The notes under the pieces were generated by a model. It did not search any database, was not told the DNA's origin, and was given only the letters and a program-made list of their open reading frames with translations. This document shows positions 27,020 to 48,204 of a DNA stretch of 62,280 bases, in pieces. The position numbers were made by a program, and so were the translations under genes. The number at the start of each line of letters is the position of its first letter. Within the stretch, counting starts at the first letter, position 1. The DNA comes from an uncultured Bacteroidales bacterium (lineage in GTDB: Bacteria > Bacteroidota > Bacteroidia > Bacteroidales > WCHB1-69): positions 1 to 62,280 of the forward strand of contig ONAB01000015.1 in the NCBI GenBank assembly GCA_900315705.1. The letters are read 5' to 3'.

Positions 27020-29218
27020 TTACATATTATTCTTAAACAATTGAATCATTTTTTCCGTCTCCTCCCGGATTTGCTTGACAAAACTCACCTCATCCAATTC
27101 ACCGATGACGGCAATCTTCTCCTCCTCGTTGCGGAAGGTGGCGTTGCGGAAGGGGTTGTCATAGTCCTTCTTGCGGGAGATATAGACTTGGTCGCAGATG
27201 AACTGCTGCACTTGGCAGGCCTTTTCCAAAATCTCTTTCCACAGGGCCGGGGTCAAAGTGTCGGCACGGTCCAGATAGAGGAACCGCAGCGACGAGAAAG
27301 CGTGGCGCAGCTTCTCCACAGGGTATTGCTCCCACATCTCGTTGTATCGCTGGTGGATATCTTCCCACGAGTTAAGGACTCCTTTGTTAATATCGCGGCG
27401 GAGTTTCTCCACATCGTCGCCGGTCACCAATTGCCCTCCGAGGTTGATCCACTCGCGTTGCTCCTTGCGGCGGAGCTTTTCGCATAAAGTCTCGAATTGT
27501 TCTTTGGGATGGGCATCCAGATACAAGGCGATGTTTTTCGCACCATAGTAAAGCAGCATATCGCCGTAGGCGTGGTAGGATTCGTAAGGTTTGAGAATGC
27601 GCACTCTGCGCTTGCCGTGCTCCATACCCTCGCCGAAAACCTCCAGCTTCTTCGCTGTTTCGGGATCGTGGTTCAGCAGCTGCCGCCCTGTGTTGATGAG
27701 CTCGTCGCGGGAGATGGACTCGTCATAGCGGTTTTCGGAGCGCAGAAGGGCCTTGGCCGTCCAGATTTCAAGGAGCTTGCGGGCTTCAATGGCCTCCTCC
27801 ATCGTGTCGGGGGCGAAGGTCTCGAACTCGATGTGCTGGATGCGGCGCTTCCGCTTGTCGCGCTTCTGATATTTGGAGGTGTTGCGCGCAATGGCGTACA
27901 TATTGTACATCCACCAGTAGGCGGGCATCACCTGCAACTCGTCGTCCGCAGTGTTGTTGCTCACTAAACTGAAGGGCAGCATTATGTTGAGTTCGTTGGG
28001 GTAGTCGGCCTTCGACAGCAGGGTGAAAGAGGCGAACTTGGAGGAGTGCTTGACCGACGAGCAGAGGCCGGGCCAGAAGCCGCGGCTGGCCACAATCTCA
28101 CCGTCGGTGGCGCGACTGTTGTGGTTGGAGCCGATGGTGGCGCCGGCGGCCATATTGCTCTGGCCCATCACGCACGCCGAGATGAGGAACGAGTTGTTAT
28201 GGTGCTGCTCGTGCGACGGGAAGATGAGGTTGTTCAGCACCTCGCAACACGAGATGGTCGAGTTGTCGCCCAACACCGAATAGATGAGGCGTGCCCCGTA
28301 CTTGAGGTTGCAGTTGTCGCCCAGCACGAAACGGGTGCCCACCACGGAGTAGAAGATACGGCAGCCGTAGCCGGTGATGCCGTTCACCAAGATCACACCC
28401 TCCCCGATCTGTGTGGGTTCCTCCTCCGAGGAGTTGATGGTCACGTTCTTCAGTTTGGAAGCGCCCTTGATGTAGGCACACGGCCCGATCTTGGCATCCT
28501 TCAGAATCCAGCAGTTCTTGATGACGCAGCCTTCGCCGATGGTGCCGTAGTAGCCGCGCCGGTTGTCAAAAGAGTTCTGCGTAATCTCAAACAGCCGATC
28601 CTGCAGCTTCTTGTCGTCCCGGTATTTGGCCCACAAATAGGCATCCGAGGTTATCATCCCGTCGAAGGGCAGGATGCCGCGTCCGCCGCCTTCGTTCATC
28701 ACCTCCAACCACACACGCACATCCTCGGGCTCGCCCTCCTTGAGGATGCCGTTGCCGAACTTGGAGTGGTCGGTGGTCGATAACTCCTGGATGTTGAAGA
28801 GGATGCAACGGTCGCCGATAATGTAGTTGGCCATATAGTGCACATCGTGGATGGCCGCGTCGTCGCCAATATCGCACGATACGATGCTGCTGCCCGTGAT
28901 GCCTACAGGCACGCGTAGGTCGTGGTACTGCAGTATCTCGTTGCGGATACGGCCGATGCGCACCATCCCGAAGAAACGGTTGTTCATCACCATTGTGGTG
29001 TCAAACTCGTCCGTCACCCAGATGTCGTCCCAATTGGTGGCCGTGTTAGCGTTCTTCACCAGTCGCTCCACTTCGTCGGAACGAAGATGGCGCCAACCGC
29101 CTTCGGGATGTTTCACCTGCTGATTGCGGAAATAGTATTCATCGTAGTTATGAAGATATTTATCCTCAATGAAATTCTTGTAAATGCGGTCGTATGAAAG
29201 TATTGTGACGCGATCCAT
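27020..29218 (-). CDS. DUF4954 family protein (left-handed beta-helix, acyltransferase-like)
   Basis: This 732-residue protein has a central region (about 130-420) of hexapeptide-like turns ([53 protein letters not shown]), suggesting a left-handed beta-helix as in sugar nucleotidyl- and acyltransferases. It matches the Bacteroidota/Spirochaete DUF4954 family. The C-terminal ~300 residues are helical and unassigned. I chose the ATG at 29218 ([19 protein letters not shown]); the frame upstream overlaps the -7 element. Its place before nagB suggests a role in amino-sugar or hexose-phosphate metabolism, but this is inference. Confidence 0.88.
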
Positions 29219-29239
29219 AAGCTTTGGATTTAAAAAGGG

Positions 29240-29247
29240 CAAAACTA
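29240..29247 (-). promoter_or_regulatory. -7 element for the DUF4954-nagB unit
   Basis: TAGTTTTG on the minus strand fits TAnnTTTG, 21 bases before the ATG at 29218. Confidence 0.58.
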
Positions 29248-29308
29248 AAAAAAAAGAGAGATTGATGCCCGATGCCAATCCTCTTTTAAGTTTTTTTAAC
29301 GAGATGAA

Positions 29309-30763
29309 TTACAGCCCTAAAACCTGATTGTAGAGCGGGAATTCTATTTTGTTGTGCGGGAAATCCTTGTTTCCTACCTTGATGGTGACCTGTCCGCCGT
29401 TCACTTTCAGGTCCTTGACGCGGATGCGCTTCAGATGCCCCACCTTGTCCTTGTAGGTCACACTGTTGAGATGAAACATATACAAGCGGTTGGTCTGCTC
29501 CAGGATGTTGACGGTCGATTTGGTGATGGTGATGTTGGGCAGGCACTTCTTGGCCAGCTCGGGACGGCTGTTGCGGGTGTCCGACAGCGTGCGCGCGTCC
29601 ACGATGTAGTTGCGGCGGTTGTTGATGTTGAAGACACAGCTCTTGAACTCCACATCAAAGGGGGTGAAGGCGTTGTAGTTGGACTCGATAAGCACCGGCA
29701 CGTGGTTGTTGAAGATGCACTTTTCAAACGTCAGCTGCCCATAGAAGGAGGAGAACTGGTTGTAGAGGTTGTTGAAGATGCAGTTGCGGATGGTGACGTC
29801 GCGCCCGTAGCAGTGGATGTCGTAACGGTTGATGTCGCAATTGTCCAGCTTCGCCACGTTGATGTTGTTGGTGCCGAAGATGCCCCATTTCGACTGGCTG
29901 GTGAGGTGGATGATTTCCGAGTTCCAGACGTTGTCCATCAGGATGCCGTAGCCGTAGCGGTCGGTGCGCGAGTAGGTGCCGTTGATGCGGATGTGGTCGA
30001 GCGTCACCTTTGCGCAGTCGTTGACCTGGATGACCCCGTCGGCGGTGAGATTGCTCTCCGGCGTGTTGACGATGATGTCGCACAACTCCACATTGTACTG
30101 GTTCTGTATGTCAAAACAATAAGTTTTGTATTTGGAACTCTTGTCGCGGTTGATGGTGATGCCCGAGACCACTTTCACATAATCGGTGACAGGGCAGAAG
30201 TGTGCGGAGGGCCGCGATTCCGGCGTGTTGTAGGGCATTATGGGCCGGTTCTGGGCCTTGCCATTCTCCACGTAGAGGATGTCCTTCCGGAAATGCCCGT
30301 ACTTGTAGCCCTGCCGCTGGTCCACCCAAAGACTGTCGTCTCTCAGGATGAGGAGGTAATTGCCCGTGCGCAACTCCTTCACCGACTCGAAATGCCCCTT
30401 GTCGATAAGCTCCTTGTCCACCACAATGCTGTCGGCAGGCTGCACCATCTCGAAAAGGAAGAAATGCTTGCTGTTGTTCTTGACATTCAGCACCAGGTTC
30501 TTGAAGAGGTTGTAAGAGGTGAGCGGGATGGGCTTGGCGTCGGCGGGAATCTCGATGTCGAGTTTGTCCACTCCGTCGTAATTCACATCCACGCCTAACT
30601 CAAGGGCCGCCACGTGGGTGTTGTAAAGGGCATAGAAGCGCTCCACATCCGTTTTGGCCTCATCCAACCCGTACCAGCAAGGTGAAACGGGCTCTTTTTG
30701 CTCCTGTCCCTGACAAATGCTTACGGACATAAGTAATATGATGATAGTTAATAATTTACGCAT
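29309..30763 (-). CDS. Secreted right-handed beta-helix (pectate-lyase-fold) protein
   Basis: This 484-residue protein has a signal peptide (MRKLLTIIILLMSVSICQGQ). From about residue 190 it shows repeating NxxI/VxNCxF-type rungs (NVELCDIIV, CAKVTLDHIRI, KLDNCDINRYD, VTIRNCIFNN, LTFEKCIFNN, VEFKSCVFNI), the pattern of a right-handed parallel beta-helix. Such folds occur in polysaccharide lyases and epimerases, but no catalytic set is evident. No T9SS domain or lipobox, so it is probably periplasmic. It starts 35 bp after the nucleotide-sugar dehydrogenase on the same strand, so it may act on the polysaccharide made by that cluster. Confidence 0.78.
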   Translation of the reverse strand: MRKLLTIIILLMSVSICQGQEQKEPVSPCWYGLDEAKTDVERFYALYNTHVAALELGVDVNYDGVDKLDIEIPADAKPIPLTSYNLFKNLVLNVKNNSKHFFLFEMVQPADSIVVDKELIDKGHFESVKELRTGNYLLILRDDSLWVDQRQGYKYGHFRKDILYVENGKAQNRPIMPYNTPESRPSAHFCPVTDYVKVVSGITINRDKSSKYKTYCFDIQNQYNVELCDIIVNTPESNLTADGVIQVNDCAKVTLDHIRINGTYSRTDRYGYGILMDNVWNSEIIHLTSQSKWGIFGTNNINVAKLDNCDINRYDIHCYGRDVTIRNCIFNNLYNQFSSFYGQLTFEKCIFNNHVPVLIESNYNAFTPFDVEFKSCVFNINNRRNYIVDARTLSDTRNSRPELAKKCLPNITITKSTVNILEQTNRLYMFHLNSVTYKDKVGHLKRIRVKDLKVNGGQVTIKVGNKDFPHNKIEFPLYNQVLGL

Positions 30764-30798: not shown

Positions 30799-32076
30799 TT
30801 ACAGTCTGCCGTCCACAATGTCGCGGGGCAAAATACCCTTCACGTCATACACGACGCCGCCCTCCCTGACGAGATTGCGGACATCCAGTTCAAGGAACTC
30901 TTTGTGTGCCACGGCGAGGATGACTGCGTCGTAGAGTGGAGAGTTGAGAGTGGAGAGTTGAGAGTGGACGGGGATGCCGTACTCGTGGAGCACGTGGTCG
31001 CTGTTGGCCCACGGGTCGTAGATGGTGATGTTGGGGGTGTATTCGAGCAGCGTGTGGTAGATGTCCACCACTTTGGTGTTGCGGATGTCGGGGCAGTTCT
31101 CCTTGAAGGTGACGCCGAGGATGAGGATTTTGGCATCCTTGACCATCACGCCCTTCTTGTTCATACACTTGACGGTCTGGTTGGCCACGTAGGCACCCAT
31201 ACCGTCGTTGAGGCGGCGGGCGTTGCTCATCACGCGGGGCAGCACGCCATACACCTGGGCCTTCTGGATGAGGTAGTAGGGATCCACGCTGATGCAGTGG
31301 CCGCCCACGAGTCCCGGACTGAGCTTGATGAAGTTCCATTTGGAGGCGGCGGCCTCGATGACATCGTGCGTGTCGATGCCCATCGCGTTGAAGATCTTGG
31401 CTAGCTCGTTCATAAAGGCGATGTTCACGTCGCGCTGCGAGTTCTCGATGATTTTGGAGGCCTCAGCCACCTTGATGGAGGGGGCCTTGTGCGTGCCGTT
31501 CACCAAGACGGAGTTATAGACGGCATCCACATAGTCGGCAATCTCCGGTGTGGAGCCGGAGGTGACCTTCCGGATCTTCTCGACGGTGTGCTGTTTGTCG
31601 CCGGGGTTGATGCGTTCGGGACTGTAGCCGGCGAAGAAGTCGGTGTTGAAAGTCAGCCCGCTGGTCTTTTCCACGACGGGGAGGCACTCCTCTTCGGTGA
31701 CGCCGGGATAGACGGTGCTCTCATAGACCACGACATCGCCCTTGGAGATGACCTTGCCCACGGTTTCCGACGCGCCCCACAGGGGCCGCAGGTCGGGGCG
31801 GTTGTTCTCATCCACGGGAGTGGGCACAGCCACCACGTAGAAGTTGCAGTCGTGGATGTCGTCCAAACAGGTGGTGCAGCGAAAGCCGTGTTGGGAGATG
31901 GCCTCCTGCAGCAGGGTGTCGTCCACCTCCAAGGTGGCGTCGTGCCCCGCCATTAAGGCATCCACGCGGGCTTGGTTCAGGTCGAAGCCCACAGTTGGGT
32001 ATTGGGTGGAAAAGAGGCGGGCTAAGGGCAGCCCGACATATCCGAGGCCGATGACGGCGATTTTGGTAGATTTCAT
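30799..32076 (-). CDS. Nucleotide-sugar dehydrogenase (TviB/WbpA type)
   Basis: This 425-residue UDP-sugar 6-dehydrogenase oxidises C6 of a UDP-hexose or UDP-HexNAc to the uronic acid with two NAD+. Features: Rossmann GxGYVG at 10-15, VAVPTPVDENNRPDL at 82-96, ESTVYPGVTEE, FAGYSPERINPGD and active-site Cys261 in VGGHCISVDPYYL. The pattern is nearer to UDP-GlcNAc/GalNAc dehydrogenases (TviB, WbpA) than to UDP-glucose dehydrogenase. Residues 371-381 (HSQLSTLNSPL) are encoded by a heptad DNA repeat and look like an insertion. It lies 32 bp after galE. Confidence 0.92.
   Translation of the reverse strand: MKSTKIAVIGLGYVGLPLARLFSTQYPTVGFDLNQARVDALMAGHDATLEVDDTLLQEAISQHGFRCTTCLDDIHDCNFYVVAVPTPVDENNRPDLRPLWGASETVGKVISKGDVVVYESTVYPGVTEEECLPVVEKTSGLTFNTDFFAGYSPERINPGDKQHTVEKIRKVTSGSTPEIADYVDAVYNSVLVNGTHKAPSIKVAEASKIIENSQRDVNIAFMNELAKIFNAMGIDTHDVIEAAASKWNFIKLSPGLVGGHCISVDPYYLIQKAQVYGVLPRVMSNARRLNDGMGAYVANQTVKCMNKKGVMVKDAKILILGVTFKENCPDIRNTKVVDIYHTLLEYTPNITIYDPWANSDHVLHEYGIPVHSQLSTLNSPLYDAVILAVAHKEFLELDVRNLVREGGVVYDVKGILPRDIVDGRL
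30934..30968. repeat. In-frame heptad repeat inside the nucleotide-sugar dehydrogenase gene
   Basis: Five phased 7-bp units alternate GAGTGGA and GAGTTGA. They encode the non-conserved residues between the NAD-binding C-terminal strands (PVHS...LYDAVIL). The same unit occurs in the non-coding heptad block near 42512-42522. Confidence 0.75.
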
Positions 32077-32108: not shown

Positions 32109-33122
32109 TTAAAAACCTTCGGGGTTTTGTTTTTGCCAGTTCCAGGAGTCGCGGCACATATCCTCCAGTCCGTATTGGGCGGTCCAGTGCAGTTCGCGGG
32201 CAGCCTTGGCGGGGTCGGAGTAGCAAGTGGCGATGTCGCCGGCGCGGCGGGGCATAATGCGGTAGGGAATCTTGACGCCGGTGCTCTTTTCGAAGGCCTT
32301 CACCACGTCCAAGACCGAGTAGCCCTGGCCGGTGCCGAGGTTATATATGGCCAAGCCGCAGTTGCGCTCAATGGCGGCGAGGGCAGCCACGTGCCCGCGG
32401 GCGAGGTCCACCACGTGGATGTAGTCGCGCACCCCCGTGCCGTCGGGCGTGTCATAGTCGTTGCCGAACACCCCCAGCTCGGGCCGCTTGCCCACGGCCA
32501 CTTGCGTGATGTAGGGCATCAGGTTGTTGGGAATGCCGTTGGGGTTCTCCCCGATGCGGCCGGAAGGATGCGCCCCGATGGGGTTGAAATAGCGCAGCAA
32601 CACGATGTTCCACACAGGGTCGGCCTTCTGAATGTCCATCATTATCTCCTCCAACATACTCTTGGTCTGCCCATAAGGGTTGGTGCAGTGCCCTTTCGGA
32701 CACTCCTCCGTGATGGGTATCACCGCCGGGTCGCCATAGACCGTGGCGGAGGAGGAGAAGATGAGGTTCTTGCATCCGTGCTGCCGCAACACATCCAGCA
32801 ACACCAAGGTGCCGCTGATGTTGTTCTCGTAGTACTCCCACGGCTTGGCCACCGACTCGCCCACGGCCTTGAGCCCCGCAAAGTGGATGCAGGCATCGCA
32901 CGGGTGCTCCGTCAGCACGCGGTCGAGGGCGGCACGGTCGCGGATGTCGGCCTTGAAAAAGGGAATCTCCGGCACTTTCACCAGCTCAGCTACCCGCTGC
33001 AGGGCTACAGGACTGGAGTTGCACAGGTTGTCCACCACCACCACTTCGTGTCCGGCATTGTAGAGTTCTATGATTGTGTGGGAGCCAATGAACCCGGCTC
33101 CTCCGGTGACTAATATCTTCAT
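32109..33122 (-). CDS. galE: UDP-glucose 4-epimerase
   Basis: This 337-residue extended short-chain dehydrogenase interconverts UDP-glucose and UDP-galactose (or the GlcNAc pair). It has TGGAGFIGSH at the N-terminus, the FAGLKAVGESV block, catalytic Ser/Tyr (FSSSATVYG and NPYGQTKSMLEE with YxxxK) and the late NLGTGQGYSVLDVV and GRRAGDI-type (PRRAGDIATCY) blocks. The ATG at 33122 begins exactly at the Rossmann strand (MKILVTGGAG). It has its own -7 element in the 38-bp gap after the ATP-grasp gene and supplies precursors to the surrounding polysaccharide cluster. Confidence 0.95.
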   Translation of the reverse strand: MKILVTGGAGFIGSHTIIELYNAGHEVVVVDNLCNSSPVALQRVAELVKVPEIPFFKADIRDRAALDRVLTEHPCDACIHFAGLKAVGESVAKPWEYYENNISGTLVLLDVLRQHGCKNLIFSSSATVYGDPAVIPITEECPKGHCTNPYGQTKSMLEEIMMDIQKADPVWNIVLLRYFNPIGAHPSGRIGENPNGIPNNLMPYITQVAVGKRPELGVFGNDYDTPDGTGVRDYIHVVDLARGHVAALAAIERNCGLAIYNLGTGQGYSVLDVVKAFEKSTGVKIPYRIMPRRAGDIATCYSDPAKAARELHWTAQYGLEDMCRDSWNWQKQNPEGF

Positions 33123-33160: not shown

Positions 33161-34300
33161 TTATAGCATTCCTTCGTAATGATTGTACGTTTGGCTGGTG
33201 GGCTTGATGAGCTCCAGCACATTGATGCCGAAAATCTCCTCGGCACTCTCTTTCAGCTTCTGCTTGACGCCCACCTTGAGCGGGGCTTGGAGGCCGCCGT
33301 CGAAGTCGGGGGCGTGGTTGCCCTCAATGAGCTCAATGCGGCCGTCGGCGAGCGGACAGAGGTCCCAGCCGGCGAAGCGGAGGTCGGGCATCACCTGCGC
33401 AGCTTTTCTGCAGGTCTCCACAATCTGCTCCCAATAGGGGATGGTGAACCCCACAATGGGCACGTCCGTGTCGGGATGGCGCTCGTAACGGTGGTTGTGT
33501 GCGTCGATGGCGGGCGTGTCAATGCACCCCGTCTCGGGATTGATGGGGGCGAAGACGCCGCCCGCGTGGGTGTTGTCGATGACACTGCCGCCCGCGCCCA
33601 TCCGCAAGAGGGCCCCGAATACGGCGAACTTGTCGCCTTGGGAAAGCGTGACCACCCGGATGGTGTTGAGCGAGGCGGGATGCAGCTGCTCTATGGGCTC
33701 GCAGGCCCGCACGCACTCCTCCAACAGCAGGTGCTGGTCGCGACAACGGGCATACAGGGCTTCCCAATCCTGCACTTCACTGGCGCAGATCTTGAAGATG
33801 CCCTCGCCGCAGGTGCCGTCCGGTGGCTTGGCGATGACGTCGTGCGACTCCACGAAGGCGCGGAACTCCTCCATTGAACATCTGTCGGCCATTCGCCACT
33901 CGCGGTGCACAAAAGGCGCGAAGCGTTCCAGGAAGGCGGTCTTGTTGCGGAAGGTCTGGCGCACCTCGCGGGTGACGATTTTGCGGTAGATGCACTGCAT
34001 CTCCGAGCGGGAGATGAAGGCGTCGCGCGCCGCCTCGTCGAGTTTCCAGTATTCGTAGCCGTACATATACTCCTGGTAGGTGACGCGATGGCGGCGCAGG
34101 GCCTCCTTGTAGTCGGCAAACGTGCCGTGCGGGGCGCCCTTGCCGAACTGCTGCCGCGCCTCGCGGGTGAAAATACGCTTCTCTTCTTCGCGGATGCGCG
34201 TCTCCTGTAACCACGCCCAACGCAGCATCTTCTCGTAGAGCGCTGTCTGCTTGAAGATGTGATAGAGGGCGTTGCGGTTTTGGACGGGTTGCGTGGCCAT
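33161..34300 (-). CDS. Sugar-transfer-associated ATP-grasp protein (copy 1)
   Basis: This 379-residue protein belongs to the ATP-grasp family found in polysaccharide clusters (ATPgrasp_ST). Key parts: nucleotide-binding Lys and Gly-rich loop in IAKPPDGTCGEGIFKI, the family block ASLNTIRVVTL, RMGAGGSVIDNTHAGGV, GWDLCPLADGRIELIEGN with the metal-binding Glu and Asn. ATP-grasp enzymes activate a carboxylate as acylphosphate and join it to an amine or thiol; the substrates here are unknown. The ATG at 34300 (MATQPVQNRN) lies 2 bp after the stop of copy 2; the frame is open further upstream but that part is shadow. It is the most divergent of the three copies. Confidence 0.9.
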   Translation of the reverse strand: MATQPVQNRNALYHIFKQTALYEKMLRWAWLQETRIREEEKRIFTREARQQFGKGAPHGTFADYKEALRRHRVTYQEYMYGYEYWKLDEAARDAFISRSEMQCIYRKIVTREVRQTFRNKTAFLERFAPFVHREWRMADRCSMEEFRAFVESHDVIAKPPDGTCGEGIFKICASEVQDWEALYARCRDQHLLLEECVRACEPIEQLHPASLNTIRVVTLSQGDKFAVFGALLRMGAGGSVIDNTHAGGVFAPINPETGCIDTPAIDAHNHRYERHPDTDVPIVGFTIPYWEQIVETCRKAAQVMPDLRFAGWDLCPLADGRIELIEGNHAPDFDGGLQAPLKVGVKQKLKESAEEIFGINVLELIKPTSQTYNHYEGML

Positions 34301-34302
34301 AG

Positions 34303-35394
34303 CTACCAGTTGGGGTTTTGATGGTTGGGTCTTTGCATCAGCTCGCGGATGATGCTTTCCGTATGTTCGCCGAAGGCGGGACCGTTGGCCGACTGGCTCA
34401 ACTCGGTGCAGATGTTCCATTCGATGAGCACGGGCTCGCCGCTCTCCTCGATGGCCACGTCCCAGCCGATGAGGTTGAAGAAGGGCAACTGCAGGTGCAG
34501 GCGCTTCACGGTCTCCACGGCCTCGTGGTAAGAGGGCACGGCGTACCCCTCGAGGGTGATGCCGCTGTCGGTCTTCTCCACGTTGTCGGCGCCTACGTTG
34601 CCGAAAGCGTAACGGGCCAGCGTGCCGTCGGGGTTGATCTTGGCGCTGATGCCGCCGGCACTCTCGTTGTCGATGTCGCTGCCCGCGCGCCCGATGCGGA
34701 TAACGGTGTAGAGCACGATAATCTCCATACCTCTGCGGTAGGTGAAGATGCGGATGGTGTTCACCGACGAGTCGTTGAGGGCGTTCATCCGCTCGTGTTG
34801 GTGTACGCGGCGCTGTATCAGGAAGTCCTCCTTGTAGCGGTCGAAGAGTTTCCCGATGGTGAGCCCGTCCACATTGGTGACGCCATCTCGCACGGTCAGG
34901 CGGTGCACGCCGTCGCCGTGACTCTCCAACGAGGGCTTGATGATGACATCGTCCAAGTTCTGGGCGAAGGCGACGGCCTCCTCTTTGGTCACGGGCTTGC
35001 CGCCCACATAGAAGTAGCCGTTCATATTCTTCAACAGGGTTTCCGGATGCTTCACGTCGGGCAGATAGACCTCCGCCATATTCTTGTCGGCGTAGGCGTC
35101 GCGGTAGCCGTAGCGGTTGGCGCGGTAGAGCAGGGTGGCCTTGTAGAGGCTTGTCGGCAGGTATTTCTTCGAGTAGATGCCGGTACGCGAGTAGAGGAAC
35201 TTGTGCCATACCAGCGGGATGCGCTCGCCGGTGAGCTCCTTGTAGAAGGCACGGATCTCCTTTTTCTGGGCACGCGTCAGCGTCTTCTTGCCCTCCAGAC
35301 GGTCGTATTTGGCCTTCAAGGGCTTATAGAAATATCGGATAACCCTTTGTTTCTGTATCTTATCAATGATTTTTTTGATGGTTTGTTTCAACAT
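34303..35394 (-). CDS. Sugar-transfer-associated ATP-grasp protein (copy 2)
   Basis: This 363-residue paralogue has the same blocks as its neighbours: VIIKPSLESHGDGVHRL (nucleotide loop), DSSVNTIRIFTY, IRIGRAGSDIDNESAGG and LIGWDVAIEESGEPVLIEWN (Glu and Asn metal ligands). The N-terminal ~80 residues are basic and helical and differ from copies 1 and 3. No signal peptide or membrane helix, so it should act in the cytoplasm. It sits 18 bp after copy 3 and 2 bp before copy 1. Divergence in the N-terminal part suggests different acceptors or partners. Confidence 0.9.
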   Translation of the reverse strand: MLKQTIKKIIDKIQKQRVIRYFYKPLKAKYDRLEGKKTLTRAQKKEIRAFYKELTGERIPLVWHKFLYSRTGIYSKKYLPTSLYKATLLYRANRYGYRDAYADKNMAEVYLPDVKHPETLLKNMNGYFYVGGKPVTKEEAVAFAQNLDDVIIKPSLESHGDGVHRLTVRDGVTNVDGLTIGKLFDRYKEDFLIQRRVHQHERMNALNDSSVNTIRIFTYRRGMEIIVLYTVIRIGRAGSDIDNESAGGISAKINPDGTLARYAFGNVGADNVEKTDSGITLEGYAVPSYHEAVETVKRLHLQLPFFNLIGWDVAIEESGEPVLIEWNICTELSQSANGPAFGEHTESIIRELMQRPNHQNPNW

Positions 35395-35412
35395 AGAGAA
35401 GGATATGACAAA

Positions 35413-36573
35413 TTATTGTGAGATAATATGTTGGAGATGCCGATTGCTCAGTTGTTGCGGTATTCTTCCGAAATAGGGGAAAGGGATGATGCCGTCGCGC
35501 ACCTGCTGCTCCCAGGCTTGGTAGCATTGGCGGATGTCGGGGCGCCAGCCGCGGCGTATGAAGTACTGCCCCGTGCGGTCCCACAGGTCGTTGACCTCGA
35601 TCACGAGCGGCCCCTCGTCGGTGATGGCGATGTCCCAGCCGGCCACACGGCAGTAGGGGAGCGCCTGCTGGAAGCGGCACACCTCGGCCTTGATTGCGTC
35701 CCAGTGTTCTATGGCCACACCGTTCAGCGGGGCGTTGCTGTCGGGATGGCGGTCGATATCGGTGACCTTCCGCCAGCCGTCGTACTGGATGGCGTACTGG
35801 AGTTTGCCGTTCTCGGTGTCAATGGCCACATCCACGTTGCCGCCGTCGCCGGCGTTATCTACAATGCTGCCCGCCCGCCCGATCTTGATGAAGGTGGCGA
35901 TTATCTTGACTTCATTGTCCGGGTAGAGGGCGGTCATAAAGCGCACGGTGTTTACCGAGGAGGGGTTGAAGGCGGCGAACTGCTGGGTTTGATGAATAAC
36001 ACTTTCAAAGATAAGAGGTTGCCGCTTGAGCATCGCCGACAGGGATGCTCTTTGGCCGTTATGGTCCAAGAAGGTGGCATCGTTGCCTGCGTATTGGATA
36101 TCCTGGATGAGGCGCACTCCCTCGCCGTGCGAGTTTTCGGTGGCCTTCACCACACAATCGGTCACCCCTTTGTTGCGCAGGATGCGCACCAGGCCGGCCA
36201 CGTCGTTGGCGATTTCATCGTTGGGGGCCACCACTCCTTCCGGCTGGTAGTAGGCATAAAGCAGGGCCTTGCGCACGCCAGTATTCTCCAACATCTTGTG
36301 GGTAAGATACTTGTTGCGCATCAGAATGTAGTATTTTTCCGGATTCAGCAGTTGCAGATAATGACGCTGTTCGTGTTTCCCAAGAAAATCGTTTCGGAAA
36401 GATTCCGACCGTTTTTCAAATTCAAACTCGTCGTACTCCTCCATCGTCAGTCCCTTCAGCCGGTACAGTTGGCAGTAGTCGCGGATGATGTGCAGCCGTT
36501 GGGCGGGGCTCTTGGCGCAGCGTCGGGCGAGCAGCAGCAGTTGGTGGCAGAAGGTGATGGCTTTGCGTATCAT
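35413..36573 (-). CDS. Sugar-transfer-associated ATP-grasp protein (copy 3)
   Basis: This 386-residue paralogue is the first ATP-grasp gene of the run. Blocks: CVVKATENSHGEGVRLI, NPSSVNTVRFMTAL, IKIGRAGSIVDNAGDGG and VAGWDIAITDEGPLVIEVND (Glu and Asn metal ligands). Copies 2 and 3 share the RAGS-DN block exactly, while copy 1 has GAGGSVIDN. It begins 6 bp after the acyltransferase gene, so the four genes are very likely one transcript from the promoter at 37346. Confidence 0.9.
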   Translation of the reverse strand: MIRKAITFCHQLLLLARRCAKSPAQRLHIIRDYCQLYRLKGLTMEEYDEFEFEKRSESFRNDFLGKHEQRHYLQLLNPEKYYILMRNKYLTHKMLENTGVRKALLYAYYQPEGVVAPNDEIANDVAGLVRILRNKGVTDCVVKATENSHGEGVRLIQDIQYAGNDATFLDHNGQRASLSAMLKRQPLIFESVIHQTQQFAAFNPSSVNTVRFMTALYPDNEVKIIATFIKIGRAGSIVDNAGDGGNVDVAIDTENGKLQYAIQYDGWRKVTDIDRHPDSNAPLNGVAIEHWDAIKAEVCRFQQALPYCRVAGWDIAITDEGPLVIEVNDLWDRTGQYFIRRGWRPDIRQCYQAWEQQVRDGIIPFPYFGRIPQQLSNRHLQHIISQ

Positions 36574-36579
36574 AATGCT

Positions 36580-37323
36580 TTAAAGATGGGTACGGTGATA
36601 ATGGTATTGTTGGTCCAGCTCTCTTTGCTGTTCCTCGTCCCAGATGCGGCGTATGCCAGTGGCTTTGAGGGTGGCGGGTGCGCCGGCGAGGAGCGAGTAG
36701 GGTTCTATGGAGGAGAAGTCTTTGTTTACCAAGCTGTTGGAGGCGATGATTACCTCTTGGGGCACCTGCGCGCCCTTGGCGATGGTGGTGCGGTTGCCGA
36801 TCCAGATGTTGCCGGCCAACAGCACGGGCTTGGTCAGCGGGGGTATGGCGTTGTCCTTCTCTATCAGTTGGATGTAGTGGAAGCTGCTGTCCATAATCTG
36901 CACGTCCCAGGCCATCCGCACGTTGTGGCCGATGGTGATTTTCTCGAAGCACATCACCTTGAAGTTGGTGCCGCAGTAGGTGCCGCCCGTGCCGAAGGAG
37001 AGCTCGGCGCCGTCGGCCACGAGCAGGTAGGAGCCGTGGGCGAACTTCATCCGTCCCGCGAAGGTGAGGGTGCCGTTGATGGTCCAGATGCTCTGTGGGA
37101 TGGCGGTGGCCACGTAGTAGTCGCGTTTGCCGATGATGATCATCTCGGCGCTAACCTGGTCGGGGAGCACGATGCGGCCGCGGGTGCCGCGGAGTTTGAA
37201 CCGTCCATAGACGAAAATCGGCAGTCGCACGGCCTGCCGCCAGGGCAGCATCTTGAAGTTGATGCGGAGCGTTTGCAGGATGTTGCACCGGAGGAAGCGT
37301 AGTATCAGTTTGATATAGGACAT
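36580..37323 (-). CDS. Hexapeptide-repeat acyltransferase (WbbJ-like)
   Basis: This 247-residue protein has a left-handed beta-helix of the LbH/maltose-acetyltransferase type in its second half (ITIGHNVRMAWDVQIMDSSFH, then GNIWIGNRTTIAKGAQVPQEVIIASNS). Such enzymes use acetyl-CoA to O-acetylate sugars. The catalytic His is likely the one in MDSSFHYIQL. The basic hydrophobic N-terminus (YIKLILRFLRCNILQTLRIN) may bind the membrane. I chose the ATG at 37323. It is the first gene of the ATP-grasp operon and probably acetylates the same glycan. Confidence 0.87.
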   Translation of the reverse strand: MSYIKLILRFLRCNILQTLRINFKMLPWRQAVRLPIFVYGRFKLRGTRGRIVLPDQVSAEMIIIGKRDYYVATAIPQSIWTINGTLTFAGRMKFAHGSYLLVADGAELSFGTGGTYCGTNFKVMCFEKITIGHNVRMAWDVQIMDSSFHYIQLIEKDNAIPPLTKPVLLAGNIWIGNRTTIAKGAQVPQEVIIASNSLVNKDFSSIEPYSLLAGAPATLKATGIRRIWDEEQQRELDQQYHYHRTHL

Positions 37324-37382: not shown

Positions 37383-37634
37383 CCGGAGATTCCGCTCAAC
37401 GCTGTCGCGTTTCGCGGAATGGTGTGCCGCAAGCGGGGAGAAGAAAGGGAGATGGGCGGCGGGCTGGGGCGTGCCGTTGCCGGAGCCTTTTCCCTCGCCG
37501 CCCATCTCCCCCTGTTCCCTCCGGCGGCCCCCGCCATTCCGCTGCGAACGCAGTGAGCGGCGGAATCCCCTGCATCCTTGGCAGGACCTAGCCGTGGCGA
37601 ACGCAGTAGAGCCGCCACATTGTGACGGCTCTAC
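37383..37634. repeat. Repeat module A plus hairpin module B (copy 1)
   Basis: A GC-rich module of ~223 bp starting CCGGAGATTCCGCTCAAC is followed directly by a 29-bp hairpin (37606-37634, stem GTAGAGCCG/CGGCTCTAC around CCACATTGTGA). Near-identical copies lie at 60087-60339 and 60684-60938; a truncated module A lies at 42997-43100. Frames inside it are not protein-like. It fills most of the 363-bp gap between the acyltransferase and the lipoprotein gene. Confidence 0.88.
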
Positions 37635-37686
37635 TTTTCTACACCCTGTCGAAAAATCCAATTATAATGATAAAGGAATGTCAATT

Positions 37687-38301
37687 CTATTCAACTAAGT
37701 GCCATAGCCAGTTGGCAGAATTGTTCCCCCTGTTGGAGAAAGAAGTCAGCCCCTTGTCTTTTACGATTTGAGCGGACAAAGAATTGTCGCCAACCACACC
37801 AAAATCAATAGCATCTCCAAGGTCGGAAATATCCCCATCATAGGGTTGGGACGTCAGGTTGACGTGCGCATTGTTGTAATGAGCTTCAAAACCGAACCGA
37901 ATGCTGACCCTTTGTCCATTTTCTCCGCCGGCTGTGCCATAAAACGAAAGACGGAACTCATCCGGCACTTCATCGCTGCTTTGTCCGGAAATGCGGGATA
38001 GCCGCACATAATACACCGGTAGATCATAACCAGGGTGACAATGATCCCAATAGTAAGTGTAATAGGCGGTGTCATAGTTCAGTAAATCCATATCGCGGAC
38101 CTCATAGACCAAAGTGTCAGACAATGATTCAGGTCTGTCATTATAAAAAGAGATTTGTTGTCCTACTTCGTATGGGAGATATTGGTTGAGAACTTTAGGC
38201 AAGCACCAGCCGTGAGCGGTGGTGATTTCACAATCATCGGTGGTGCATCCCGTAAAGACCAATGCACTGCATACAAGCAGTAGTAATGATATTTTTTTCA
38301 T
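37687..38301 (-). CDS. Putative lipoprotein
   Basis: This 204-residue protein has a lipoprotein signal (MKKISLLLLVCSALVFTGC, lipidated Cys19), then a Cys/Tyr-rich start (CEIT..HGWCLP) and beta-type sequence (FRLSFYGTAGG, RVSIRFGFEAHYNN). I recognise no family. Asp/Thr after the Cys fits surface or outer-membrane retention only weakly. It lies 10 bp after the 314-residue secreted protein and should be co-transcribed with it from the regulated promoter at 39344. Base composition is more AT-rich than the polysaccharide genes next door. Confidence 0.72.
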   Translation of the reverse strand: MKKISLLLLVCSALVFTGCTTDDCEITTAHGWCLPKVLNQYLPYEVGQQISFYNDRPESLSDTLVYEVRDMDLLNYDTAYYTYYWDHCHPGYDLPVYYVRLSRISGQSSDEVPDEFRLSFYGTAGGENGQRVSIRFGFEAHYNNAHVNLTSQPYDGDISDLGDAIDFGVVGDNSLSAQIVKDKGLTSFSNRGNNSANWLWHLVE

Positions 38302-38311
38302 TGTTGTGTTT

Positions 38312-39256
38312 TTAATAATTTACAATTTTTTTCACGAAATCCCCAATCTTCACCACATAGCACCCTCTCTGTAACGGTATGAATTCTTTTGAATCTGACA
38401 GTGTTTTTCTGGCAATGAGTTGTCCTGACAAATTATATACCTCACAAACAACTTTTTCATTAACCCCAGAGATATTAACACCCTGTCCCGTACAAAATAA
38501 TTTGTATTCAGGATCAGCGTGTTCCGGAACTGATGATTCACGGTGAATCTCAAGATGCCCACAAGCCTGGCCGTTATTGTCAACGACAGTAGCGCTGTCT
38601 GCGTTGAAAGATGCCTGCTCCGGCACTGTTATGTGACAATTGTCCAATGACAACTGCCCTATGTTTCTGAGGGCCCTTGGCGCATTAATGACCAAAGAAC
38701 TTCCGTTCACACTAATTTCCGCATAACAACCGTGATCATTTTGAAAATGTGAATTCATATATGTCCATATCCCGCAGGAATAGGGTGTGTTTATTTCCAC
38801 GTGGCTGTTTTCAGATATAACCACTCCGTTATTTCGATTCATCAAATCTCCGAGTCCCCAAAAAAAGATTCCTCCCCAGGAATTCTCATACGGAGATTCC
38901 AATAACAGACTTCCCCCACCTTTGATGTGGAAGACTGAATGAGATATCTCTATGGGTACCAAACCTGTTATTTTGTTTTCCCCTATTAATACTATGGAAA
39001 TGCTGTCCTCTTGGTGTATAGCAATTCCTCCTCTGATCGGCGTGGACAAAGGCATTGTAATAGTGGCATTATGCATAGTGAGGGTCCGGGAATCTGACTG
39101 GTAATAGATTGTGCCAGTTATACAGTCGCTGGTCACAACAGTATCCCTGTTAAGGTCTATTCGCACGTTACCGACATAGACATCAGCATTTGCCCGGTTT
39201 GTAGAAACAAGGAAAAACAGACTAAACAATGTTGAAAGCAAAATGATTTTTTTCAT
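38312..39256 (-). CDS. Secreted beta-helix-like protein with short T9SS-type C-terminal domain
   Basis: This 314-residue protein has a signal peptide (MKKIILLSTLFSLFFLVSTNRANA). The middle shows beta-rich, repeated turns (TLTMHNATITM, SISIVLIGENKI, GVVISENSHVEI, SSLVINAPRALRNI), resembling a carbohydrate-binding or beta-helix stalk. The last ~60 residues (VVCEVYNLSGQLIARKTL to GCYVVKIGDFVKKIVNY) fit a T9SS type A sorting domain, although the PNP motif is missing. The gene is AT-rich. Its promoter region matches that of the small lipoprotein at 41001 over about 54 bp, suggesting shared control by the nearby LytTR regulator. Confidence 0.75.
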   Translation of the reverse strand: MKKIILLSTLFSLFFLVSTNRANADVYVGNVRIDLNRDTVVTSDCITGTIYYQSDSRTLTMHNATITMPLSTPIRGGIAIHQEDSISIVLIGENKITGLVPIEISHSVFHIKGGGSLLLESPYENSWGGIFFWGLGDLMNRNNGVVISENSHVEINTPYSCGIWTYMNSHFQNDHGCYAEISVNGSSLVINAPRALRNIGQLSLDNCHITVPEQASFNADSATVVDNNGQACGHLEIHRESSVPEHADPEYKLFCTGQGVNISGVNEKVVCEVYNLSGQLIARKTLSDSKEFIPLQRGCYVVKIGDFVKKIVNY

Positions 39257-39343
39257 AATTATAGATTTATTTTTTGATTTGAATTCTGTGTTTATAACAA
39301 CGTGTTTTTTTTTGATTTATTATATTTGTCGTTTTTTTGCTGG

Positions 39344-39403: not shown

Positions 39404-39488
39404 CCTAAAATATGACGACACAGGATATATAAACAATCTCTTGGTAAAACAAATATCAAATATACAGCACTTTACACAAATACGGTTT

Positions 39489-43100: not shown

Positions 43101-43136
43101 TTAACTTCTTAACTTCTTAATTTCTTAATTTCTTAG
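43101..43136. repeat. 8-bp phased array overlapping the flippase 3' end
   Basis: TTAACTTC/TTAATTTC units repeat four times and include the flippase stop codon (43125-43127), so the last codons are encoded by the repeat. Confidence 0.7.
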
Positions 43137-44582
43137 TTTCCCTTTCACCTTCTGCAAAAAAATCTCCTTGTACGTCTCGTACGCCTCCATCTTGAAAAGG
43201 ACTGAGATGAGCCAATAGAGGGCGACGTAGGCCACGATTTGCACCGCCATCACAATGTAGGGATGGAAGGGCAGCAGCTGGCCGCCGAAATAGACCGCCA
43301 CCGCCAAGAGCGCCGATAACAGGTAGCAGAACCCCACATCCCCCATTTGTCGCCAAATACCGTAGCGTATCAGTTTCTTGTTGACGAACGCGTTGATGAT
43401 GAAACTGATATATCCCACCGAGGTGACCGCCCACAACAATCCGTAAATGCCATATTGCGCTCCCAAAATTATGAGACCAATGCCAATAACTCGCTTGCTG
43501 AGCTGCACGATGAAGAAGATGTTGCTCTTTCCCAGCGACTTGATAACGTTGGTGTTCAGCGTGTTGAGCGTATAGATCATACTGGAAATGCAGAGAATCT
43601 GGAAGAAGGGCACCGCGGGCTCCCACTGCGGACCGTATAGCAGCAGGATCAAGGGTTTCGCCACCGCAATCATCAGCGCCATCAACGGGAAATTGAGGTA
43701 GGTGATGGCCTTGATGTTGCGGCGCACCGCGTAGAGCAGACGCTTCTTGTCGTCCTGTATGGAGGCGAAGACGGGGAAGGAAACCTGGTTCACAATCTGC
43801 GAGAGCGATTCGGTGGGCACCGACTCCAGCTTGCGCCCCTGCGTGTAATAGCCGAGGTCGGTGGCCGAGTAGAGCTTGCCGATGATGAGACTCTGCAGGT
43901 TGGTATAAACCGTTTCCACCAGCGAGGAGAGCGCCATCAGCCCGCCGAAGGCGAACAACTCCTTCAAAGAGGCCAGACTGAACTCCAGGGAGGGCCGCCA
44001 GTCGCTCATCTTCCACAACAGCAGCACGCTGGTGAGCGCGGTGATCAGCTGCGACACTACCAGACTCCAGATGCCAAAGCCCATCAAGGCCATCGCGATG
44101 GCTACCACCATCCCCACAAAGGTGGCAATGATGTTACGGACCGACAGCTCCTTGAACCGCAGATGCCGCTGCAATTGGCACGACTGCACGAGGGCGAACC
44201 CCTGGATTAGCAGCACAAGACTCTGCACACGGAGCACGTTGGTCAACTCGGGCATCTCGTAGTAGCGGGCGATGGCCGGAGCACAGAGGTATAATAGTCC
44301 GATGAAGAAGAGCGACGCTGCCAAGTTCCAATAGAATACGGAGTTGTAATCCACTTTTGTGGGCTCCTCCTTTTTCTGTATCAACGCCATCCCGAAACCG
44401 GCATACACGAAGATGGTGGAGATGGCGATGAAGACGTGCAACATCCCCACACACCCGAAGTCGGCAGGCACCAGCAACCGGGCCAGCACCATATTCGCGA
44501 CAAAAGAGAGCCCCACGGAACCGAACTTCCCGATTCCGGTCCAGATCATCCCGGCGATGGTTTTTTCTCTCAAAGTGGTCAT
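43125..44582 (-). CDS. Wzx/WzxC-like polysaccharide flippase
   Basis: This 485-residue MOP-superfamily protein has about 14 hydrophobic segments and the WzxC-type N-terminus (TIAGMIWTGIGKFGSVGLSFVANMVLARLLVPADFG, shown here only as a family match). It is expected to flip lipid-linked oligosaccharide across the inner membrane. It belongs to another subgroup than the flippase at 4095. It is the last gene of the minus-strand run rmlA-ugd-saccharopine-dehydrogenase-like-flippase, but a 173-bp repeat-bearing gap precedes it, so co-transcription is uncertain. Confidence 0.9.
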   Translation of the reverse strand: MTTLREKTIAGMIWTGIGKFGSVGLSFVANMVLARLLVPADFGCVGMLHVFIAISTIFVYAGFGMALIQKKEEPTKVDYNSVFYWNLAASLFFIGLLYLCAPAIARYYEMPELTNVLRVQSLVLLIQGFALVQSCQLQRHLRFKELSVRNIIATFVGMVVAIAMALMGFGIWSLVVSQLITALTSVLLLWKMSDWRPSLEFSLASLKELFAFGGLMALSSLVETVYTNLQSLIIGKLYSATDLGYYTQGRKLESVPTESLSQIVNQVSFPVFASIQDDKKRLLYAVRRNIKAITYLNFPLMALMIAVAKPLILLLYGPQWEPAVPFFQILCISSMIYTLNTLNTNVIKSLGKSNIFFIVQLSKRVIGIGLIILGAQYGIYGLLWAVTSVGYISFIINAFVNKKLIRYGIWRQMGDVGFCYLLSALLAVAVYFGGQLLPFHPYIVMAVQIVAYVALYWLISVLFKMEAYETYKEIFLQKVKGKLRN

Positions 44583-44728: not shown

Positions 44729-44758
44729 AAAGTCTAAAGTCTAAAGTCTAAAGTCTTA
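44729..44758. repeat. AAAGTCT heptad array at a stop codon
   Basis: Four perfect AAAGTCT units end in TTA, the stop codon (minus strand) of the saccharopine-dehydrogenase-like gene. On the minus strand each unit reads AGACTTT and carries TTTAG across unit joints, giving stops in all frames. Confidence 0.75.
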
Positions 44759-45976
44759 CATCTCGTCAAAACACGGTTCAATCCAATTTTTCAGATAATC
44801 AAATTTCGGGGTCAATTTTCCTTTGCGTAGTATAGTGGCGCCGTCGATGACGGGGGAGGCCGTGCGGTTGAGCATCGGGCGCAGCACGTGGGTCACGAGG
44901 GCGTTGCCGAAGTAGGCGCTGGAGTCGAGGGCCAGGGCGTTGGGACAGGTGTCCACCGCCATCACGGTGATGTTGGAGGGACTGGCAAAGGCGGGTTCCT
45001 CCTTTTGGGTGGCGGGGTTGTAGTCGTAGTAGGGTGCGTTGTGGGTGGAGGCGCGGAGCGTGGACTTGACGCTGCCTTGAATGTCGCAGGTCACGTCGCC
45101 AATCATCCGGATGCGGAGGGTGGGGTCGGCGAGGTCGGCTTCGCTGAGATAGACCGGCGCTTCAGGAGCCCAGAAGTGGGCGCAGAGCAGCGCATCGGCC
45201 ACGCGGCCCCAGCGCATAAAGTCGCTGCAGTATGCCTCGGGATGGTGCGTGAAATGCTCCCAACTGAAGTCGCCGCCGTCGGTGCGCTTTACCAGCCGGT
45301 CCACGTCGGCCACGCAGTAGGCGAGCGTCTCCACGGGGGTGTCTTGCAGGAAGGTCTGCTCGTCCATTTTCAGGGCGCCGATTTCGCGCAGGAGGTGCTG
45401 TGCCCCCTGCGAGACGCGTCCTGCACCGGTGACCACCAGCTTGATGGAGGGTAGTTGAATGCCCTTCAGCAATCGGATAATGCCCTCTAAGGTGAAGGTA
45501 CGGTCGGCGGGCGGCAGCTCGTAAAGCCGGTGGCGCAGGCCGTAGCCGCGAAGGGTGTAATAGACGCCCACAATGCCGGCCCACCAGCCGAACGCGCAGA
45601 CACGCTGGCCCTTCCCGTCCACCAGATACTCGTAGTCGGTAAAGGTGATTTCCCGCTCCATCAGGGTCTTCACCAGAGGGAGGTTATAGGCCTGCATCTT
45701 GGCGAAATGGCCGAAGAAGAAGTAATGCTTGCGCGGCAGCAGGCGCTCCAGGTTCACCTCCTTGACGCCCATCAGCACGTCGCAGTCCGACACGTCGTCC
45801 ACTACGGGGATGCCGGCCGCGCGGTACTGGTCGTCGCTGTAGGCACGCAGGTCGCACGACTGCACCACGAACCGGTCGTCGGGGTAGTCGCGTTGCAACA
45901 GGGCCATCTGTTCCGGTGTGAGGGCCACGCGGTTGTCCACGGGAATCTTGGTTTCCTGGATGAGTACTATTTTCAT
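44756..45976 (-). CDS. Saccharopine dehydrogenase (NAD+, L-lysine-forming)-like oxidoreductase
   Basis: This 406-residue protein has the AlaDH/PNT-type N-terminal domain (ETKIPVDNRVALTPEQM) and the Lys1-like blocks HYFFFGHFAKMQAYN, DYEYLVDGKGQRVCAFGWWAGIVGVY and VVTGAGRVSQGAQHLL (nucleotide-binding). Enzymes of this group reversibly condense 2-oxoglutarate with lysine or reduce related imines. Its position between ugd and a flippase is odd and hints at making an unusual amino-acid derivative for the glycan (inference). The true start is the ATG at 45976; the longer frame upstream overlaps ugd and is spurious. Confidence 0.83.
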   Translation of the reverse strand: MKIVLIQETKIPVDNRVALTPEQMALLQRDYPDDRFVVQSCDLRAYSDDQYRAAGIPVVDDVSDCDVLMGVKEVNLERLLPRKHYFFFGHFAKMQAYNLPLVKTLMEREITFTDYEYLVDGKGQRVCAFGWWAGIVGVYYTLRGYGLRHRLYELPPADRTFTLEGIIRLLKGIQLPSIKLVVTGAGRVSQGAQHLLREIGALKMDEQTFLQDTPVETLAYCVADVDRLVKRTDGGDFSWEHFTHHPEAYCSDFMRWGRVADALLCAHFWAPEAPVYLSEADLADPTLRIRMIGDVTCDIQGSVKSTLRASTHNAPYYDYNPATQKEEPAFASPSNITVMAVDTCPNALALDSSAYFGNALVTHVLRPMLNRTASPVIDGATILRKGKLTPKFDYLKNWIEPCFDEM

Positions 45977-46008: not shown

Positions 46009-47274
46009 TTAGTCGCGTTTGAAGATGTCGCGGGTATAAACTTTGTCGGCCACGTCGTCGAGGTCGCTGTCGTAGCGGTTGGCGATGATGGCCTGGCTCT
46101 GTTTCTTGAACTCGTCGAGGTTGTTGACCACGCGGCTGCCGAAGAAGGTGACGCCATCCTCCAAAGTGGGCTCGTAGATGATGACGGTGGCGCCCTTGGC
46201 CTTGATGCGCTTCATCACGCCCTGGATGGAACTCTGGCGGAAGTTGTCGCTGTTGCTCTTCATCGTGAGGCGGTACACGCCCACCACGCACTGCTTCTCG
46301 TTGTTGGCGTCGTAGTCGCCGCGATTGTAGTAGTCGTAGTAACCGGCCATCTTGAGCACCTGGTCGGCAATGAAGTCCTTGCGGGTGCGGTTGCTCTCCA
46401 CGATGGCGCGGATGAGGTCCTCAGGCACATCGGCGTAGTTGGCCAGCAACTGCTTGGTGTCCTTGGGCAGACAGTAGCCGCCGTAGCCGAAGGAGGGGTT
46501 GTTGTAGTGGTTGCCGATGCGCGGGTCGAGGCATACACCCTCGATGATGTGCTGGGTGTTGAGCCCCTTGATCTCGGCGTAGGTGTCAAGTTCATTGAAG
46601 TAGGAGACGCGCAGGGCAAGGAAGGTGTTGGCGAAGAGCTTCACGGCCTCAGCCTCGGTGCTGCCCATAAAGAGCACGGGCACATCCTGCTTGATGGCCC
46701 CCTCCTTGATGAGGGCGGCAAACTGGTGCGCCTTCTCTTCCAGGAAGGCGTTGCTTTGGTCATAGCCCACGATGATGCGCGAGGGGTAGAGGTTGTCGTA
46801 AAGGGCCTTGCTCTCCCGCAGGAACTCGGGCGCGAAGATGATGTGCGGCAGCCCGTCCTGGTAGCCGTGCTCCGTGGTACGGAATTTCTTCCTGACTCCC
46901 TCCACATATCCCACAGGGATGGTCGATTTGATGACCATCACGGCGTTGGGGTTGTGCTTGAGCACCAGCTCAATGACACTCTCCACAGCGGAGGTGTCGA
47001 AGAAATTCTTGACACTGTCGTAGTTGGTGGGAGCGGCAATCACCACGAAGTCGGCCTGCTTGTAAGCGGTGGCCGCATCCAAAGTGGCGTGCAAATCCAA
47101 GGGCTTGTGCGCCAAGTAGTCTTCAATGTAGTCGTCCTGTATGGGCGATTTCTTGTTGTTAATCATCTCCACCTTCTCGGCGACGATGTCCACAGCCTCC
47201 ACGTGATGGTGCTGTGCCAATAATGTTGCGATGGAAAGGCCGACATATCCAGTGCCGGCAACGGCGATATTCAT
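46009..47274 (-). CDS. ugd: UDP-glucose 6-dehydrogenase
   Basis: This 421-residue enzyme oxidises UDP-glucose to UDP-glucuronate. Rossmann motif GTGYVG at 7-12, [48 protein letters not shown] and catalytic Cys268 in [14 protein letters not shown]. This is the short Ugd type typical of capsule loci, distinct from the TviB-like enzyme at 30799. The 42-bp gap to rmlA is almost filled by a heptad array that touches the ATG, leaving no room for a usual ribosome-binding site. Confidence 0.95.
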
Positions 47275-47316: not shown

Positions 47317-48204
47317 TTAGTCATCGATTCCTCGGTCGGCGAGTTGGATGAGGTATTGGCCGTACTGGTTTTTGGCCATTGGCTTGGCGATTTCGCGAAG
47401 GCGGTCGGCGGTGATCCAGCCCTTATGGAAAGCGATGCCTTCGAGGCAGGCGATCTTGAGGCCTTGGCGCTTCTCGATGGTTTCCACAAAGTTGGTGGCC
47501 TCGGCGAGAGAGTCGTGGGTGCCGGTGTCGAGCCAGGCAAAGCCGCGCCCGAGCAGTTGCACTTTCAGCTCGCCATCCTTGAGAAACTCCTGGTTGACGG
47601 TGGTGATTTCCAGCTCGCCACGGGCTGAGGGCTTGATGTGCTTGGCCACCTCCACCACCTTGTTGGGGTAGAAATAGAGCCCCACCACGGCGTAATTGCT
47701 CTTGGGGTTGGCGGGTTTCTCCTCAATGGAGAGACAGTTGCCCTCTTTGTCGAACTCGGCCACGCCGTATCTTTCGGGGTCGTTGACCCAATAGCCGAAG
47801 ACCGTGGCTTTTTGGTCCTCCTCAGCAGCCCTGACGGCATCGAGCAATTTGCCCGTGAAGTGGCTGCCGTAGAAGATGTTGTCGCCCAACACCAGACAGG
47901 CGCAGTCGTCGCCGATAAACTCCTCGCCGATGATGAAGGCCTGGGCCAGACCGTCGGGGGAAGGCTGCTCCGCATACTGGAGGTTGATGCCGTAGTCGCT
48001 GCCGTCGCCCAGCAGGCGCTTGAAACCGGGAAGGTCCTGCGGAGTGGAGATGAGCAAAATGTCGCGGATGCCCGCCAACATCAGCACGGAGATGGGATAG
48101 TAAACCATCGGCTTGTCATAGATGGGCAGCAGCTGTTTGCTCACGCCCTTGGTGATAGGATACAACCGGGTGCCGGAGCCCCCGGCGAGAACGATTCCTT
48201 TCAT
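47317..48204 (-). CDS. rmlA: Glucose-1-phosphate thymidylyltransferase
   Basis: This 295-residue nucleotidyltransferase makes dTDP-glucose, first step to dTDP-rhamnose and other deoxysugars. Signature [22 protein letters not shown] at the N-terminus, [44 protein letters not shown] and [14 protein letters not shown] are all conserved. The rmlB, rmlC and rmlD genes are not in this window. It lies 19 bp after the lipoprotein gene and 42 bp before ugd. Confidence 0.95.

Follow-up and report, generated by a model that had tools for sequence, protein, structure and literature searches.

A run of three divergent PF14397 ATP-grasp genes in a Bacteroidales surface-glycan locus: candidate carboxylate-amine ligases for glycan decoration

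Introduction

Amides between uronic acids and amino acids are known in many O-antigens; that of Providencia rustigianii O14 carries N-epsilon-(1-carboxyethyl)-L-lysine on galacturonic acid (available sections of PMC10609480). In the HS:2 capsule of Campylobacter jejuni, the C-terminal domain of Cj1438 is a TupA-like amidoligase that forms an amide bond between the C6 carboxylate of glucuronic acid and an amine (available sections of PMC11800379). An ATP-grasp amino acyl ligase, CA_C2189, has also been predicted in a surface-carbohydrate locus of Clostridium acetobutylicum (available sections of PMC4000134). Here we describe three consecutive ATP-grasp genes, designated A, B and C, in a stretch of 62,280 bases from an uncultured Bacteroidales bacterium (hereafter the window), which is contig 14 of genome G000 (97.6% complete).

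Like Cj1438, which is encoded in a capsule locus, A, B and C are ATP-grasp proteins of a surface-glycan locus; unlike Cj1438, which belongs to PF14305 and contributes one ligase domain, the window carries three genes, all of PF14397 (PMC11800379, in part). CA_C2189 resembles A, B and C in being predicted from its context to act together with sugar-modifying enzymes, and differs in that it is the single ligase in its locus table and is itself a prediction (PMC4000134, in part). The Providencia amide is the kind of product proposed here, the opine-like lysine included, and is compared as a chemical structure only (PMC10609480, in part). In the literature searched, most subscription journals lying outside its coverage, no proven reaction was found for any PF14397 member, no paper carried the name or accession of the family, and none listed dealt with PF14397 in a glycan locus of Bacteroidales. 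Judging from sequence and gene context, we consider that A, B and C are, on balance, probably three non-redundant carboxylate-amine ligases that tailor a surface glycan exported by a Wzx-type flippase, each of them a separate module.

Three divergent and intact members of PF14397

Genes A (35413..36573, 386 amino acids), B (34303..35394, 363 amino acids) and C (33161..34300, 379 amino acids) all open with ATG and follow one another on the reverse strand, with 18 bp between A and B and 2 bp between B and C. Each belongs to PF14397 (ATPgrasp_ST, sugar-transfer associated ATP-grasp), with E-values of 4.6e-42 for A, 3.1e-37 for B and 8e-51 for C; in order of coordinate, the three genes score 173.3, 128.7 and 144.6 bits, exceeding the cut-off of 31.4 bits. 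An earlier note on this DNA had described three ATP-grasp genes with these limits and gaps, preceded by a hexapeptide acyltransferase and followed by galE and a UDP-sugar dehydrogenase, and both the coordinates and the profile matches agree with it. The sugar-transfer setting of the family is present in the window, which also encodes a flippase, GalE, nucleoside diphosphate (NDP)-sugar dehydrogenases and RmlA.

In an alignment of 49 relatives, lysines K88 and K143 (A numbering) were found in all 49 rows, and R211, D314 and the E326-x-N328 motif were invariant. We take these lysine, arginine, aspartate and E-x-N residues to serve the ATP and metal sites, as in the ATP-grasp superfamily. The lysine and the E-x-N site are thus kept, as the earlier note had stated, and no loss of ATP-binding residues was seen in the alignment. 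Nineteen columns are at least 90% conserved with an identical residue across the A, B and C groups, including both lysines, the arginine, the aspartate and the E-x-N motif, and 11 columns are conserved inside each group but differ between groups. The difference among the three proteins had been placed in the N-terminal ~90 residues; this does not hold, the whole proteins being only 22–25% identical (C-B 25%, C-A 22%, A-B 24%).

Among G000, G015 and G028, the ratio of nonsynonymous to synonymous substitution rates (dN/dS) ranges over 0.112–0.197 for A, 0.013–0.053 for B and 0.140–0.176 for C, and all three genes are under purifying selection. Degenerate copies are ruled out, because the invariant residues are retained and dN/dS is low. 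B is far more conserved between these genomes, with 97–99% protein identity compared with 83–92% for A and C. Gene A has two close named matches, both on Bacteroidales contigs of metagenome-assembled genomes, namely UBA1176 (92% identity) and RGIG9679 from yak omasum (84%); a more distant match, RUG13086, shows 47% identity.

Lineages and distribution

In a tree of 69 rows, the A clade comprises 27 rows (support 100/100), the C clade 9 rows (100/100) and the B clade 25 rows (88/72), or 26 rows with one long-branch row included (100/93). With identities of 22–25% and separate lineages that have orthologues in other genomes, A, B and C are not recent duplicates, and a recent tandem duplication is therefore ruled out. 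A recent trio does exist in G010, where rows 8345, 9463 and 10585 of locus L040 group at 100/99. In this locus (L040 6037-11700), a homolog of the dehydrogenase c6 described below, a second alanine-dehydrogenase/saccharopine-dehydrogenase-like gene and the three recent PF14397 duplicates stand consecutively.

PF14397 was searched in 61 genomes, 37 of the genus and 24 of the order; the 37 are part of the 41 genus genomes used for PF14305 (TupA), PF09587 (CapA) and c6. Matches at E <=0.001 were found in 41 of the 61 genomes and matches over the cut-off in 35; among the 37 genus genomes, 34 show a strong match. As most genomes were assembled from metagenomes and vary in completeness, a gene missing from one of them may reflect an assembly gap, and counts from related genomes are not independent. 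Clades were given only to genes in fetched loci, which leaves out the G026 hits and a single G033 hit. On this basis, the 37 genus genomes contain A only (11), A and B (11), A, B and C (5), B only (5), C only (1, G022) or none of the three (4).

The same three-gene run, for which the earlier note had suggested a search in other genomes, is present in G015 and G028 with the identical 18 and 2 bp gaps, which gives 3 of 37 genus genomes with G000 included. This recurrence with identical spacing shows that the run is not due to chance. In G022, C stands with galE and the dehydrogenase at a contig end. Other sets are larger: G014 has five B and C genes consecutively, and in G006 a segment of about 9 kb contains six PF14397 genes, with a CapA-like gene and further genes in between. 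Upstream of the B/C sets of G006 and G014 (L034 and L036), acyl carrier protein-, KAS III-type synthase- and short-chain dehydrogenase-like genes were recognized by eye from the sequence.

In a phylum sample of 148 genomes, PF14397 matches at E <=0.001 occurred in 58 genomes, over the cut-off in 24 and above 100 bits in 8. G168, from another class of the phylum, has five adjacent PF14397 genes (L079 7247-13363), and G179, of the same genus as G168, has three adjacent genes, one of them under the cut-off. The five-gene run of G168 adjoins two QueC-like ATPase genes and a glycosyltransferase gene on the opposite strand.

Gene order and neighbours

The acyltransferase gene (cluster c1) lies directly upstream of 22 of the 27 A genes. 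Of the same 27, 12 are immediately followed by B, A being upstream in all 12 adjacent A-B pairs, and B is directly upstream of C in 6 of the 9 C genes. This fixed order, together with the flanking of the run by uridine diphosphate (UDP)-sugar dehydrogenases in the window, G015 and G028, would fit a stepwise peptide assembly in which a uronic acid receives three amino acids in turn, from A, then from B, then from C; the earlier note had likewise proposed three enzymes for three additions. We regard such an assembly as doubtful. Of the 37 genus genomes, 11 have A but lack B, and 5 have B but lack A; among the latter, G024 and G025 are 100% and 98% complete. G006 and G014, which belong to the five genomes with all three lineages, carry A on a separate contig from the B/C sets. 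Because A and B are each found alone, neither needs the other, and strict stepwise addition is not favoured; the same counts are the reason why the ligases are regarded here as separate modules.

The A loci are of two kinds. Thirteen are single-A loci, and the others contain a flippase gene, A, B, a TupA-like gene and glycosyltransferase genes. In the single-A loci, a SIS-domain (GmhA-like) gene stands beside A in 12 of 13, accompanied in 7 by GHMP-kinase and nucleotidyltransferase genes, a set that we read, by assumption, as guanosine diphosphate (GDP)-heptose synthesis. Neither of the two dehydrogenase clusters of the window has a member in any of the 13 single-A loci, which is a further point against the stepwise scheme. 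The uronic acid acceptor of the earlier note is accordingly doubtful for A: it is not favoured in the single-A loci, and it may still apply in the window, which encodes two sugar dehydrogenases nearby.

Directly after B, a TupA-like ATP-grasp gene is found in 15 of 25 cases and C in 6, so that most A-B loci have the TupA-like gene as their third ligase, and C takes that place in the lineage of the window. TupA-like hits number 47 in the 41 genus genomes, and 15 of them are within 5 kb of a PF14397 hit, with 226–315 bp between. Among the 39 strong CapA-like (PF09587) hits, 12 have a PF14397 hit no more than 5 kb away. For these proximity counts, PF14397 and TupA hits over their cut-offs and PF09587 hits over 100 bits were used. 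G000 itself has one TupA-like ATP-grasp gene, on contig 12, followed by two glycosyltransferase genes, the same pair as after it in relatives.

CapA-like genes are located within or next to several B- and C-containing sets, and in G000 a fourth PF14397 gene on contig 6 (G000:C6) is one gene away from the only strong CapA-like gene of the genome. These arrangements could point to a role of the ligases, partnered by the CapA-like protein, in making or attaching a poly-amino-acid chain of the polyglutamate kind. We consider this unlikely, as the window locus is without a CapA-like gene, the only one of the genome being on another contig, and 27 of the 39 strong CapA-like hits in the genus have no PF14397 hit inside 5 kb. 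FemAB-like or other ATP-grasp ligase genes were also observed near PF14397 genes (L054 13946-14929, L037 6000-7259 and L081 11540-12460), a hint of peptide chemistry.

The saccharopine-reductase-like dehydrogenase c6

Downstream of the RmlA gene, the window encodes a saccharopine-reductase-like (LKR) dehydrogenase, c6 (44756..45976, reverse strand; PF05222, 4.5e-17), which is followed by a Wzx-type polysaccharide flippase gene (43125..44582, reverse strand; PF13440, 1.4e-100). Positions 12-400 of the c6 profile match the LKR domain of alpha-aminoadipic semialdehyde synthase (PDB 8e8u_A, human-type) at 5.5e-42. Residues K72 and H90 are the same in all 10 aligned rows and presumably correspond to the catalytic lysine and histidine of yeast saccharopine reductase.

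The gene is single-copy in 26 of the 41 genus genomes, and in 19 of these 26 a PF14397 or TupA hit lies no more than 10 kb away from it. A flippase gene directly follows c6 in 20 of the 25 genus loci fetched (G210 left out). The remaining five comprise two loci with PF14397 beside c6, two with RmlA and a UDP-glucose-dehydrogenase-like gene nearby, and one at a contig end. One internal stop codon was reported in each of the c6 matches G022:C49 and G028:C55. A second saccharopine-dehydrogenase-type family, PF16653, occurs in 38 of the 41 genus genomes, also in genomes that have no c6 and mostly on other contigs than c6, and is therefore not tied to it. The literature searches returned no paper on a saccharopine-type enzyme in an O-antigen locus. 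Alternatively, c6 may be a plain enzyme of lysine catabolism.

Proposed function

Compared with the PDB, the 49-row PF14397 profile matched mostly amide-forming ligases (TTLL6, TTL, D-Ala-D-Ala ligase, cyanophycin synthase and RimK), the matches being weak (best E 0.001). The superfamily, these weak matches and the company of TupA-like and CapA-like genes point to carboxylate-amine ligation, and the TupA-like, CapA-like and saccharopine-reductase-like neighbours favour amide or peptide chemistry. Other ATP-grasp chemistry, such as that of sugar kinases or phosphotransferases acting on the glycan, might be suggested by the frequent pairing of A with heptose-type genes that offer no obvious carboxylate and by the absence of a PF14397 activity from the literature searched, but it is quite improbable given that the closest PDB matches are mostly amide-forming ligases and that the neighbours fit amide chemistry. 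The earlier note had proposed an amide-decorated or peptidyl glycan; this part is supported by the context and by the Cj1438 precedent (PMC11800379, in part), and its allotment of one ligase to each successive addition is the part that did not stand.

Membership of the family, retention of the invariant residues, purifying selection, a constant gene order and co-location are what the data show; from these we infer the reaction, the substrates, the timing and a role of c6. Each ligase would bind ATP, turn a carboxylate into an acyl phosphate and couple the acyl phosphate to an amine. Amino-acid-like groups would thereby be attached through amide bonds to the glycan precursor while it is still in the cytoplasm, ahead of its export by the flippase, and the adjoining acyltransferase would put an acyl group on the same precursor. 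Each ligase would have its own substrate, the ligase set of a locus determining the decorations, and an opine-like lysine derivative from c6 may serve as one of the amines or carboxylates.

Several results weigh against the assignment of A, B and C as carboxylate-amine ligases of an exported glycan. The PDB profile matches also include biotin-dependent carboxylases, again with weak E-values. None of the three proteins has a PF14305 (TupA) match at E <=1, and the profile comparison with TupA is weak, with a probability of 28%. In the window, the flippase and acyltransferase genes are parted by four genes (37.6-42.5 kb). Finally, the c6 family is found at E <=1e-40 in 78 of 148 genomes of the order (two of this genus), and a PF14397-type or TupA-type gene is present in 0 of the 20 c6 loci fetched outside the genus, several of these loci being short; one weak flippase match (L113) and one sugar-transferase match (L115) were found among the 20. 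The association of c6 with glycan ligases is therefore particular to this genus, and the link of c6 to the decoration is weakened.

If the carboxylate-amine ligase assignment is correct, PF14397, for which the literature searched gave no proven reaction, would become testable, and the natural sets (A, B, A+B and A+B+C) would let glycan comparison assign a product to each ligase. It would also add a genetic route to the amino-acid-decorated glycans that are known chemically in many O-antigens (PMC10609480, in part), and could explain coat diversification in gut Bacteroidales. More tentatively, the PF14397 ligases of the genus might form an exchangeable kit of one to six genes per set, drawn from the A, B and C lineages, by which amino acids are amide-linked to surface glycans in varying combinations, an opine-like lysine derivative made by a recruited c6 enzyme among them, so that a change of set would change the coat; we would not yet expect this extension to hold.

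Other genes of the window locus

Apart from the four-gene block at 37600-42500, the remaining genes described here lie on the reverse strand. The hexapeptide-repeat acyltransferase c1 (36580..37323, 247 amino acids) heads the run at a distance of 6 bp from A, and position 37323 is likely its start. Compared with NCBIfam sugar O-acetyltransferases, its best E-value is 7e-10, well under their cut-offs. After C, a UDP-glucose 4-epimerase, GalE (32109..33122; TIGR01179, 464.6 bits, cut-off 262.3), and a nucleotide-sugar dehydrogenase (30799..32076; TIGR03026, 375.9 bits, cut-off 189.8) are encoded. The nearest named model of this dehydrogenase is the TviB UDP-GlcNAc C6 dehydrogenase (NF011729), whose cut-off of 592 it misses at 508.7 bits. 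Next come a protein with no significant Pfam family (29309..30763), kept in G015, G028 and G022, and a DUF4954/DUF6819 protein (27020..29278; PF16314, 1.7e-64; PF20683, 2.9e-7). The latter is long, of left-handed-helix type and part of the same gene run, and is kept in the other three-ligase genomes.

On the far side of c6, a UDP-glucose-dehydrogenase-like enzyme (46009..47202) scores 280.3 bits with TIGR03026, over the cut-off, and 524.6 bits with NF011631 (cut-off 757). It is accompanied by the glucose-1-phosphate thymidylyltransferase RmlA (47317..48204; TIGR01207, 496.2 bits, cut-off 360.65). The four-gene block at 37600-42500 includes a secretion-tail (Por_Secre_tail) protein and a LytTR/winged-helix regulator on the opposite strand. 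In the A-B loci of relatives, the flippase gene adjoins the acyltransferase gene, and G015 carries a different inserted block.

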